Shown piece by piece: positions 6,500 to 9,677 of a DNA stretch of 19,411 bases. This DNA is from Succinivibrionaceae bacterium (GTDB lineage: Bacteria; Pseudomonadota; Gammaproteobacteria; Enterobacterales; Succinivibrionaceae): positions 1 through 19,411 of the forward strand of contig DMTG01000063.1 of NCBI GenBank assembly GCA_003477345.1, given 5' to 3'. Under the pieces are notes generated by a model. The model worked only from the letters and a program-made list of their open reading frames with translations. It was not told the origin of the DNA and ran no database searches. A program made the position numbers and the translations under genes. Numbering within the stretch: the stretch's first letter is position 1; the number at the start of each line of letters is the position of its first letter.

Positions 6500-7738
6500 A
6501 TGGATTTTTTTAATTATAAAAACAATGAACTTCATGTCGAAGATGTATCGGTTGCTTCATTGGCAGAAGAGTACGAGACCCCGCTGTATATTTATTCAAA
6601 GTCTACTTTAGAAAGACATTACAAGGCCTTTGACAATGCTCTGAGCGGAATAAATCACCTTATATGCTTTGCGGTAAAGGCAAATTCTAATCTAAGTATC
6701 CTGAGCCTTATGGCAAAACAGGGCGCGGGCTTTGACGTGGTCTCAGAAGGCGAACTGCGCAGAGTGATTAAGGCAGGCGGAGACGCCGGCAAGGTTGTAT
6801 TCTCAGGGGTTGGCAAAACAGAAAAAGAAATCAGATTTGCGCTATCTTCCGGCATAAAATGCCTGAATATAGAATCAGAAGCAGAACTTGAGGTAGTTTC
6901 AAGAGTTGCTGCCGAGATGAAAATTGTGGCTCCGGTGGCTTTGAGAGTAAATCCTGACGTGGATGCCAAAACCCTGCCGGCAATTTCTACAGGACTAAAA
7001 AACAACAAGTTCGGTATCCCTATAGAAAATGCGGTTGCCATCTATAAGCGCATAGCCGCTGATCCTAATTTGAAAGCCAGCGGCATAGACTGCCATATCG
7101 GCTCTCAGATGACCTCTAATTTCCCGATTCTGGAGGCCACAGGCAAGCTGATGAATCTTTACGATGCTTTAATAAAAGAGGGGATAAAGGTAGATCATCT
7201 CGATGTGGGCGGCGGTCTTGGTGTTACCTATGATGACGAGACTCCTCCTGAGCCAAAAGATTATTTTGACGAGATTAAAAAGCGTCTTTCTGGCACCGAT
7301 CTCGAACTCTTTATCGAGCCAGGCAGAGCCATGGTAGCCAATGCAGGAATTCTGGTTTCCAGAGTTGTTTATCTGAAAAATAACGGGACTAAAAACTTCT
7401 GCATAGTAGATGCCGGCATGAACGATCTTATAAGACCTGCTTTGTATAACGCCGTTATGAAAATCATACCGGTAGCTAAAAAAGATGGTGAACTTAAAAA
7501 ATACGATGTAGTGGGCCCGGTCTGTGAAAGTGATGATTTCTTAGGCAAAGAAAGAGAACTTATCGTTGAGCAGGGAGACTTGATTGCTGTAAGAGGCGCA
7601 GGTGCCTATGGCAGCTCAATGTCCTCCACCTACAACGGAAGACCGCTGGTTGCAGAACTGCTGGTATCTGATGACAAAGTAGAGGTTATAAGAAAGCGCC
7701 AGACCTTCGAAGAAATGTGGGCAGGTGAGCTCGTTTAG
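6500..7738 (+). CDS. lysA: Diaminopimelate decarboxylase
   Basis: The last step of lysine synthesis: meso-diaminopimelate to L-lysine plus CO2, using pyridoxal phosphate. 412 residues, normal for LysA. Visible family features are the PLP lysine K60 in FAVKAN, HIGSQ at 199-203, the glycine-rich phosphate loop GGGLG at 237-241, EPGR at 273-276, the CESDD motif at 342-346 whose Cys342 acts across the dimer, and Tyr370 in GAYGSSM. All key residues are present, so the enzyme should be active. A good ribosome site, AAGGA, lies 9 bases before the ATG. lysA between lptM and dapF is the order seen in vibrios and pseudomonads; in E. coli lysA lies elsewhere. Because LysA accepts the meso isomer, an active LysA beside an apparently inactive DapF is noteworthy. 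Confidence 0.97.
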   Translation: MDFFNYKNNELHVEDVSVASLAEEYETPLYIYSKSTLERHYKAFDNALSGINHLICFAVKANSNLSILSLMAKQGAGFDVVSEGELRRVIKAGGDAGKVVFSGVGKTEKEIRFALSSGIKCLNIESEAELEVVSRVAAEMKIVAPVALRVNPDVDAKTLPAISTGLKNNKFGIPIENAVAIYKRIAADPNLKASGIDCHIGSQMTSNFPILEATGKLMNLYDALIKEGIKVDHLDVGGGLGVTYDDETPPEPKDYFDEIKKRLSGTDLELFIEPGRAMVANAGILVSRVVYLKNNGTKNFCIVDAGMNDLIRPALYNAVMKIIPVAKKDGELKKYDVVGPVCESDDFLGKERELIVEQGDLIAVRGAGAYGSSMSSTYNGRPLVAELLVSDDKVEVIRKRQTFEEMWAGELV

Positions 7739-7763
7739 AGATAAGTTAAGAAACGGGCTTTTT
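7728..7763 (+). terminator. Terminator-like stem overlapping the lysA stop
   Basis: AGCTCGTTT (7728-7736) pairs with AAACGGGCT (7751-7759), with one G-U pair and a 14-base loop. The stem runs directly into TTTTT at 7759-7763. It begins inside the last codons of lysA and could end or attenuate transcription before dapF. Confidence 0.5.
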
Positions 7764-7786
7764 CCAGACCACCGGCTGAGAAAGCC
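7756..7786 (+). other. Alternative stem competing with the lysA terminator
   Basis: GGCTTTTTC (7756-7764) can pair with GAGAAAGCC (7778-7786) over 9 positions with one G-U pair and a 13-base loop. It uses the 3' arm and T run of the preceding stem, so the two cannot form together. It may be an antiterminator. It may instead be part of the inserted sequence that ends at about 7887. Confidence 0.35.
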
Positions 7787-7851
7787 TGCTTTTAGATCTG
7801 AAATTTTCAGAAAATAAAGCTCACAAGTCAGAGTTTTACCAAATTGTGCCC

Positions 7852-7887
7852 GAAAAGCCCCTGGCTTCAGCCATGGGGAGCTGTCAA
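7852..7887 (+). mobile_element. Hairpin like an IS200/IS605 right end (remnant)
   Basis: CCCCTGGC (7858-7865) pairs with GCCA-T-GGGG (7870-7878) around a TTCA loop, with one bulged T, and is followed by AGCTGTCAAG. Imperfect hairpins of this kind, with a bulged base and a TCAA-type cleavage site a few bases downstream, are characteristic of the right ends of IS200/IS605 (TnpA/TnpB) elements and their small non-coding derivatives. No tnpA or tnpB coding sequence is present, so this is at most a remnant or a short non-autonomous copy lying between lysA and dapF. The left end was not located with confidence. Recognition is by pattern from memory, not by a search. Confidence 0.5.
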
Positions 7888-7914
7888 GAATAGATAAGCT
7901 GTCAAGAATAGATA
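7879..7914 (+). repeat. Perfect 18-bp tandem direct repeat, two copies
   Basis: AGCTGTCAAGAATAGATA occurs at 7879-7896 and again immediately at 7897-7914 with no mismatch. The first copy starts right after the IS-like hairpin and both contain the TCAAG presumed to be the right-end cleavage site. Confidence 0.95.
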
Positions 7915-7963
7915 TAGAATATTACTATATATATTAAAAAAATGTCCGGCAGGAACTCTACTA

Positions 7964-8737
7964 ATGCTATTAAAATTTACCAAAATGCAGGGGCTGAAAA
8001 ATGACTTTATGGTAGTCAATGGAGTTACCCAGAAAGTATTTTTTAGTCCTGATTTAATAAAAAAGCTGGCAGACAGACATTCAGGTATAGGATTTGACCA
8101 GCTGCTCCTGATAGAGCCACCTTATGATCCCAACGTAGATTTCCACTATAGAGTTTTCAACCCTGATGGAGAGGAAGCTCTCCAGGGAATAAACGGCGCA
8201 AGCTGTTTTGCTAAATTTGTATTAGAGCACAGACTGATTTCAAAAAAGGAAATTTCCGTAAGTACAGCATCAGGGCTTCTCTCTTTAAAAGTCGCTAAAG
8301 ATAATTCAATAATTGTAAATCTTGCTGAACCCAAAGTAACAGCTGCTGCAGACAATCTTAAGACGGTAGAGCTTTGCGGCAGGACATACATTACAGCCTG
8401 CAACAAAGAAGTTCCAAAAGATTTTTTTGACATGGTAATTCATTCTTTTACTGAAAAAAATAAATTTAAAGAAAAACCAGAAGTTGTGATCTGCAGGATT
8501 ATCAATCCTCATAAGCTTACCTTCAATCTGTACGATTCTAACGGCGGCAGGCTTAAGGCAGGAATTCAGGCATACTGCTGCGCTGGAGCTGCCGGGATAC
8601 TGCAGGGTGGCATACAGTCTCCAGTTGCTGTAGAGAACGAGAGAGACGTACTGACCATATACTGGGATGGCGAAGCTTCTTTAGTAAAGTTTTCTGAAGA
8701 GGTTGTAAGAATATTTGATGGATCAGTTGCTATCTAG
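7964..8737 (+). CDS. dapF: DapF homologue lacking both catalytic cysteines
   Basis: 257 residues (E. coli DapF 274). The N-terminal domain is strongly conserved: MQGLKNDFMVVNGVTQ, RHSGIGFDQLL, PYDPNVDFHYRVFNPDG, with Asn13 and Asn66 kept. DapF normally interconverts L,L- and meso-diaminopimelate using two Cys residues in CGNGARC and ACGSGAC motifs. Here these read GINGASC (Gly75) and AGIQAYC (Gly200), so each Cys-Gly pair has become Gly-Ile. The YERGAGET stretch reads YDSNGGRLK, losing the Glu-Arg pair. By hand alignment about 17 residues are missing in the middle of the second domain, where the GNPH motif should lie; an NPH at 181-183 may be a displaced copy. The frame has no stop or shift. 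AGGA lies 9 bases before the ATG. On established DapF chemistry it should be inactive as an epimerase. xerC follows 22 bases later; the DUF484 gene usually between them is absent. Confidence 0.88.
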   Translation: MLLKFTKMQGLKNDFMVVNGVTQKVFFSPDLIKKLADRHSGIGFDQLLLIEPPYDPNVDFHYRVFNPDGEEALQGINGASCFAKFVLEHRLISKKEISVSTASGLLSLKVAKDNSIIVNLAEPKVTAAADNLKTVELCGRTYITACNKEVPKDFFDMVIHSFTEKNKFKEKPEVVICRIINPHKLTFNLYDSNGGRLKAGIQAYCCAGAAGILQGGIQSPVAVENERDVLTIYWDGEASLVKFSEEVVRIFDGSVAI

Positions 8738-8759
8738 GCGCTGGCTCAAAGGTACTGAT

Positions 8760-9677
8760 ATGTTGAAAGATCTGGTTGATTCTTACTTGAACTATTTAGA
8801 GAACGAACGAAGATCAAGCATAAAAACCATAGATTCTTATAAAAGAGTTTTAGATAAGGTCTGCAAATCTCTGTCAAAAGAGTTTCCTGATCTCAAAAAC
8901 TGGTCGGAAGTCGGACTTAAGGAAATGCGCTTTCTGGTCAAGGAATTAAACTTTGACAGTAATGTAAAAAGGTTAAGCAGTGTTACTGTGGCGCATGATA
9001 TATATTCGCTGAGCTCTTTTTTTAACTATTTAATCAGACAGAAAATCCTGAAGGATAATCCTGTAGACTTAGTAAGTGCCCCCAGAGTTAAAAAGCCGCT
9101 GCCTAAAATTCTGACTCTGAATGAAATCAACCTCCTTTTATCGGTTGTTCCGGAAAATATACGAGAAATCAGAGACTGTGCAATTGCAGAGCTGCTGTTT
9201 TCTTCAGGCCTGCGCGTAAGTGAGCTCGTCGGGCTGGACTTAAAAGATTACAAATCTGATCAGAGTGAGGTTAGAGTATTTGGAAAGGGCAGCAAAGTCA
9301 GAATTGTCCCGGTTGGCAACAAGGCAGTAGAAAAGCTCAATAATTATTTTGCAGTCAGGGAAGAGTTCGGACCTAAGTGTGATGCTGTATTTTTAAACAG
9401 GTTCGGGGACCGGCTTTCCAGCAGGACTGTTGAAAACAACTTAAAGGCACTGGCTGAAAAAGCAGGTCTGAATATCAGCATATTTCCACATAAATTAAGG
9501 CATTCCTTTGCCACAGAGCTGCTTGGAAACGGTGCTGATCTCAGAGTTGTTCAGGAGCTTCTGGGCCACTCGAGCCTTGCCGCAACTCAGGTATATACCC
9601 ATGTTAACTTTGAACAGATGAAAAAAGTATATGCGTCAGCTCATCCAAGAGCAAAGAGGACGGATGATAACAGCTAA
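8760..9677 (+). CDS. xerC: Tyrosine recombinase XerC
   Basis: With XerD it resolves chromosome dimers at dif, acting with FtsK at the septum. 305 residues from the ATG at 8760, close to the 298 of E. coli. I chose this start because AAAGG (8748-8752) sits 7 bases before it and the protein then begins like other XerC proteins. An upstream ATG at 8715 lies inside dapF and adds 15 unmatched residues. An N-terminal SAM-like core-binding domain (about 1-105) is followed by the catalytic domain with the full set Arg152 (SGLRVSEL), Lys176 (GKGSK), His244 and Arg247 (HKLRHSFA), His270 (LLGHSS) and the nucleophile Tyr279 (TQVYTHV). The ending AHPRAKR is typical of XerC rather than XerD. Position between dapF and yigB is the standard one. 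Confidence 0.96.
   Translation: MLKDLVDSYLNYLENERRSSIKTIDSYKRVLDKVCKSLSKEFPDLKNWSEVGLKEMRFLVKELNFDSNVKRLSSVTVAHDIYSLSSFFNYLIRQKILKDNPVDLVSAPRVKKPLPKILTLNEINLLLSVVPENIREIRDCAIAELLFSSGLRVSELVGLDLKDYKSDQSEVRVFGKGSKVRIVPVGNKAVEKLNNYFAVREEFGPKCDAVFLNRFGDRLSSRTVENNLKALAEKAGLNISIFPHKLRHSFATELLGNGADLRVVQELLGHSSLAATQVYTHVNFEQMKKVYASAHPRAKRTDDNS

Follow-up and report, generated by a model that had tools for sequence, protein, structure and literature searches.

The window, i.e. the whole 19,411-nucleotide stretch of DNA that was analysed, is contig C24 of G000, a 1.6-Mb MAG that is 59% complete. It carries the gene row cyaA-lptM-lysA-dapF-xerC-yigB-uvrD, which is the row of relatives in the family Succinivibrionaceae, followed downstream of uvrD by rho, ddl, a gene for a queuosine-precursor transporter and a gene that we take to be polA. 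The dapF gene lies at 7964..8737 (+ strand, as are all features given below) and encodes 257 amino acids followed by a stop. Its intact upstream neighbour is lysA for diaminopimelate decarboxylase (6500..7738; 504.6 bits with TIGR01048, cut-off 297.9), and downstream lies an xerC-like tyrosine recombinase gene (8715..9677; 301.6 bits with TIGR02224, below the cut-off of 335.15), whose listed TTG start overlaps the end of dapF. The open dapF frame, the complete adjoining LysA and the presence of Ddl all agree with the original prediction made for this DNA. Reading frame, profile match, locus and structure model together identify the frame at 7964-8737 as the ancestral gammaproteobacterial dapF at its usual locus. 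Spacing between lysA and dapF is 225 bases (7739-7963); at most other loci compared, the two frames overlap or are at most about 30 bases apart, and G020 and G025 have more than 120. The 7739-7963 gap contains two copies of a short direct repeat, GCTGTCAAGAATAGATA.

The gene can be described as a pseudo-DapF, an ancestral dapF without its catalytic residues. Conserved domain 1, at the N-terminus, is presumably encoded by 7964..8320, with limits taken over from DapF structure, and is equivalent to stand-alone forms of 143 aa in relatives. It includes the loops VTQKVFF (8024..8044, holding T20 and Q21) and EPPYDP (8114..8131, holding E49, P50, P51 and P54). In the first catalytic loop (8186..8206), CGNGARC became GINGASC (codons GGA ATA AAC GGC GCA AGC TGT), and in the second (8558..8578) ACGSGAC became AGIQAYC (GCA GGA ATT CAG GCA TAC TGC). 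Re-reading the codons (GGA ATA and GGA ATT) thus confirms the predicted replacement of both Cys-Gly pairs, C73-G74 and C217-G218, by Gly-Ile, and at the two cysteines that define DapF the window protein has Gly-Ile in both places. The loss of the Glu-Arg pair E208-R209 from the YERGAGET loop was also seen correctly, the loop now reading YDSNGGRL (8531..8554). Among the substrate-binding residues, which we assume to be N11, Q44, N64, N157, N190, E208 and R209, the first three are kept, and R, E, D and S are aligned at 157, 190, 208 and 209. Intact relatives have 275-294 aa, some 20 more than the window protein. The latter nevertheless scores 122.9 bits with the DapF equivalog profile TIGR00652, above the cut-off of 114.65, although both catalytic cysteines are gone, which is a lesson for annotation. 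The Pfam match to PF01678 covers residues 5-124 only, and no match to the PhzF profile PF02567 was found at E ≤ 0.001.

A protein from another assembly, P0002, is 92% identical to the window protein and has the same two catalytic motifs, so the changes are not an assembly error of one genome. Over the first 117 residues, the N-terminal part to which this count is restricted by an indel near residue 126, the two differ only at positions 12 and 111. Sequencing error or fresh decay of the window gene, dismissed already in the original prediction, is ruled out by P0002 together with the low dN/dS of relatives. On whether relatives keep the Gly-Ile pairs the outcome is mixed, since P0002 has the same loops but other dead lineages have different replacements.

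Fifty-six genomes of the family were surveyed, and they yielded 55 dapF loci at the ancestral place (copy A) and 14 second copies (copy B); no dapF was found in G009 (69% complete). Both cysteines are present in 36 of 55 A copies, and at least one catalytic cysteine is lost in the remaining 19. Both are lost in 12 of these (G000, G001, G002, G003, G010, G012, G016, G017, G040, G046, G047, and G050), C217 is lost with a Cys aligned at 73 kept in four (G048, G049, G051, and G052), and only C73 is lost in three (G041, G042, and G043). Residues that replace the lost ones are lineage-specific: Gly-Ile at both sites in the window, GANAAAC and ANGTCAC as the two loops in G001, G002, G003 and G016, SNGTCAC as the second loop in G010, and further variants in the remaining lineages. 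Within genus g9, the copy of G044 is intact, and those of G041-G043, with C73 changed to Gly and ACGT to SCGT, show loss at an early stage. On a quick LysA tree (47 of the 56 genomes, those with a LysA of at least 300 aa available), parsimony gives 7 changes between the intact and the lost state, and at least 4 changes fall on supported branches; the tree has several long branches carrying several of the lost rows, which makes the exact positions of change unsure. Catalytic loss has therefore happened repeatedly within Succinivibrionaceae.

Selection on the damaged copies was estimated as dN/dS by the Nei-Gojobori method, and because dS exceeds 1 in many pairs, those with dS of 0.25-0.35 weigh most. 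These are G001-G010 (dN/dS 0.050, dS 0.35), G002-G016 (0.057, dS 0.25), and G042-G043 (0.059, dS 0.26), the last with no nonsynonymous and 20 synonymous changes in domain 1. In G002-G016 dS is uneven among neighbouring genes (dapF 0.25, lysA 0.06, cyaA 0.04), and recombination may therefore touch this pair. All pairs of dead A copies range from 0.050 to 0.105, with 0.00-0.07 in domain 1 and 0.065-0.152 in domain 2. Intact A pairs have whole-gene values of 0.068-0.116 (three pairs; the fourth is saturated), and LysA in damaged-A pairs has 0.018-0.091. Within G041-G043, each A value is 2.8 to 3.6 times as high as the LysA value of that pair; in other pairs the difference is smaller. In intact pairs, too, domain 1 evolves more slowly than domain 2 (G031-G033, G031-G035, and slightly in G023-G024). 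The estimate of dN/dS, proposed with the original prediction, thus gave purifying selection on dead copies and agrees with its claim of selection for something other than epimerisation; that dead DapF is kept by selection without catalysis is well supported. As regards random decay, named there as a sign against this view, the matched frames of all 19 damaged copies are free of stops. Domain 2 is also under selection in dead pairs, and this is not explained by a role of domain 1 alone.

Retention of residues was counted for the 16 dead copies other than the 3 early ones, using 10 representatives of lineages. At active-site positions the residue survives in 17 of 60 domain-1 cells and in 8 of 48 domain-2 cells. 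For other conserved sites, the counts in domain 1 were 182/260 for sites shared with B, 152/240 for A-specific and 69/140 for mixed ones, and in domain 2 they were 92/224, 23/49, and 45/89, respectively. Retention was higher at both A-specific and shared domain-1 sites than in the active site (p = 5e-5 and 1e-4), with no difference between these two classes (p = 0.26), i.e. no preferential keeping of A-specific sites. Fully kept A-specific sites in the 10 dead lineages are F42, E49, P51, and P54, followed by Q21 (9/10). T20 is also kept in 10/10, and the VTQKVFF loop in which it lies beside Q21 is mostly replaced in foreign DapF (copy B). Likewise, E49, P50, P51 and P54 are kept in 10/10, and foreign DapF is without E49, P51-Y52, and P54. 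Epimerase residues are thus lost differently in each lineage, while gamma-type Q21, F42, E49, P51, and P54 persist and are absent from the foreign copy.

Reduction has gone furthest in G012, where the copy has 143 aa and consists of domain 1 and the last strand, by domain limits that we presume from known structure; domain 2 is gone and the frame is kept. Among 14 database matches to this form, three were counted as one-domain proteins, with 143, 143 and 142 aa at 97, 80, and 66% identity; they therefore represent a lineage and not one broken gene. The other 11 are P0133, which is the G040 copy of 185 aa that has lost most of domain 2 and retains a remnant, and ten in which the first loop begins intact but a truncation, frameshift or internal deletion follows. 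AlphaFold2 models were built with homologous rows and for this reason indicate compatibility with a fold, not function. The 143-aa form gave a pLDDT of 93.7 and a pTM of 0.88, and its first PDB match was 6d13_A (52% identity over 117 columns, rmsd 1.3). The window protein (mean pLDDT 91.0, pTM 0.83) is predicted to fold as a whole DapF; its top PDB matches are DapF structures, with 6d13_A, E. coli DapF from the RppH complex, second at 36% identity over the whole model.

Copy B, in which both cysteines are kept, accompanies damaged A in 14 of 19 genomes and intact A in none of 36 (Fisher p = 2.7e-9, relatedness ignored). On the tree there are 4 supported independent pairs of damaged A with B and none reversed, which is not significant (median sign-test p = 0.25). 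In 14/14 cases dapL lies 41-97 bp downstream of B on the same strand (distance between ends of profile matches), forming a dapF-dapL cassette at loci L077-L081, L083, L085, and L094-L100 (14 of 56 genomes), and no other genome of the 56 has dapL above the cut-off. A partial dapL at a contig end in G010 suggests a cut cassette; with G010 counted as present, the LysA tree implies 5 changes in cassette presence. The G046 B protein is 62-65% identical to Lachnospiraceae proteins named among the 120 matches listed, and for the form of B in genera g9, g11 and g12, Lachnospiraceae appear to be the nearest named relatives outside the family among those matches. In a tree of 61 rows, comprising the 14 B copies together with sampled database matches to G046 B, B copies of genus g1, about 52-54% identical to G046 B, make a separate cluster. 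On short branches the B sequences from g9, g11 and g12 are mixed, and this suggests that the cassette spread inside the family, between genera. We also noted P0091 (279 aa, from a contig of 1024 bases), whose first half is of A type and whose second half is of B type; it is either an A/B recombinant or an assembly chimera.

Meso-diaminopimelate (meso-DAP) dehydrogenase (ddh) is above the cut-off in 30 of 56 genomes. These include G040, G041, and G047, all three with catalytic residues lost; besides G000, they are the genomes with damaged A in which no cassette was detected. Proteobacterial dapE is below the cut-off in G040 and G046-G052, and these lineages therefore appear to have changed the DAP route altogether; no match above the cut-off was obtained in G010 (87% complete) and G020 either, where contig ends interrupt the gene. 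G000 keeps dapE (440 bits) and lysA, and for this reason a meso-DAP supplier, cassette or ddh, is expected in the missing part of the genome. A second dapF, dapL or ddh was not found in the 59% of G000 available, which incompleteness can explain, and its dapL search returned distant aminotransferases only (best 88 bits). The predicted second DapF or meso-DAP dehydrogenase is thus present in most relatives with the same defect but was not found in the window's own genome.

We consider it probable that the ancestral dead DapF survives as an activator of RppH, the RNA pyrophosphohydrolase whose step opens mRNA 5' ends to decay. This reading was adopted since RppH activation is the one non-catalytic role of DapF found in print. 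The epimerase-inactive E. coli DapF(C73A/C217A) still binds and stimulates RppH in vitro, and when overexpressed it causes slightly faster decay of some transcripts, not of others, and RppH-dependent osmotic sensitivity (PMC4227774). In DapF R36A/Y268A, whose dimerisation is disrupted, binding and stimulation of RppH are likewise unaffected (PMC7144940). The window gene has the orthology and the gene row of relatives that would be looked for in such an activator. RppH is above the cut-off in 54 of 56 family genomes and in 18 of 19 with damaged A, and was not found above it in G000 (59% complete) or G020; being near-universal in the family, its presence does not discriminate. A partner role of domain 1 fits the pattern in which catalysis is dispensable, domain 2 is dispensable in places, and the fold and some gamma-type loops are kept. 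We infer that RppH is the partner and that domain 1 carries the interface.

A possible course of events begins with another source of meso-DAP taking over, usually the foreign dapF-dapL cassette and in some genomes probably ddh. Ancestral DapF would then have been released from catalysis and still bound to its second role, most likely binding and stimulation of RppH via domain 1. Its active site would have drifted separately in each lineage, and domain 2, less constrained, would have been lost or nearly lost twice while domain 1 stayed. In its full form, this holds that capture of foreign dapF-dapL several times split a bifunctional DapF, with catalysis passing to the newcomer and the old copy becoming a dedicated activator of mRNA 5'-end processing, whose end stage is a single 143-aa domain; for that whole sequence we see an even chance.

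Selection on a non-catalytic surface does not in itself name the partner, and a dead DapF kept for something other than RppH (a heterodimer with foreign DapF, XerC, or a peptidoglycan protein) has some, rather low, probability. Many pseudoenzymes act on their own active paralogue, and at most of the loci compared the first gene recognised after dapF is xerC. However, foreign DapF is unlikely as a common partner because dead copies occur in G040 and G041 (95% and 97% complete) without a detected B and because domain 2 is absent in places, and xerC is some 0.9-2.3 kb away from dapF in G003, G049, G050 and G051. A new small-molecule role, as a new enzyme or a sensor of DAP, would agree with the whole DapF fold predicted for the window protein. 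It was suggested in the original prediction, of whose branches we take "structural or regulatory partner" as the likely one and set PhzF-like chemistry aside, given the absence of a PF02567 match, the variation of active-site residues by lineage and the places without domain 2. Such a role is improbable, as the lineages differ at N11, Q44, N64, N157, N190 and in the catalytic loops without having any new pattern in common, and G012 has lost the second half of the pocket, G040 most of it. Lost catalytic residues, a shortened domain 2 and an operon-like row could also describe a recent pseudogene, open only through its position between lysA and xerC (translation coupling or polarity), but the dN/dS of dead pairs largely contradicts this, and with the stop-free matched frames of the 19 copies and 143-aa forms conserved down to 66% identity it becomes very improbable. 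Cysteine-free epimerisation by dead DapF, for which the retained fold and DapF family score could be cited, is hardly credible when the window protein has other residues in place of both Cys, E208-R209, N157, and N190 and when E. coli C73A/C217A did not catalyse the reaction (PMC4227774).

Coupling of DapF with RppH and pseudoenzymes are both known kinds. As an orthologue of E. coli DapF, known as an RppH activator (Lee et al. 2014, PMC4227774; PDB 6D13, 6VCK), the window protein differs as follows: in E. coli one protein does both jobs, with catalysis not needed for RppH activation, whereas the window copy has lost catalysis and has a putative RppH role. H. influenzae DapF mutants C73S and C217S (PDB 2Q9H, 2Q9J) are changed at the same two positions and retain the fold, but they are laboratory singles, while the window copy has Gly-Ile at both positions and further losses, is natural and under selection. 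The cassette DapF belongs to the same family with both Cys kept, and lacks F42 and the gamma-type EPPxxP. The PhzF/YHI9 family shares the overall fold at an identity of only about 8-13%. In the literature accessible to the search, with most subscription papers outside its scope, we found no DapF pseudoenzyme, no naturally dead DapF under selection, no repeated origin of one beside dapF-dapL and no one-domain reduction; nor did the accessible texts include a test of whether the DapF-RppH link is selected outside E. coli. If the proposed split between catalysis and RppH activation is true, natural selection in these bacteria shows that DapF is worth keeping for its activation of RppH, apart from epimerisation. 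The repeated separation of catalysis from the rest of the protein also supplies natural separation-of-function proteins, among them the minimal 143-aa form, with which the connection of DapF (cell wall, lysine) to RppH (RNA decay) can be tested.

Beyond the family survey, a wider profile search covered 394 genomes of the order, 386 of them with a DapF match. Among 18 chosen from the matches listed, the best DapF has both cysteines in 15, and two others (G146, G210) are partial matches. The remaining one, G404 (L231), is a single-contig genome whose sole DapF found has CGNGARC followed by ASGSNAS, with C217 changed to Ser. Both cysteines are present in all 80 loci kept from at least 588 relatives. 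Several single proteins may be added as separate observations. DapF of G007 (L012) has both cysteines but reads CGNGACC and VFESG, with R209 changed to Ser, and could represent either a less advanced state of this decay or a variant. P0051 (275 aa), near the window copy in sequence, is without both catalytic cysteines (SIDSAQC and LNQFGFC), and DapF of Oceanisphaera ostreae (P0062) has Ser at both positions (SGNGARC and ASGTGAC). Second DapF-like paralogues with Ser at both positions (SGNGLRI and ASGSSS[TC]) were found beside intact DapF at L236-L240, from three family codes (f11, f16, and f18), and they possibly belong to another racemase-like family.
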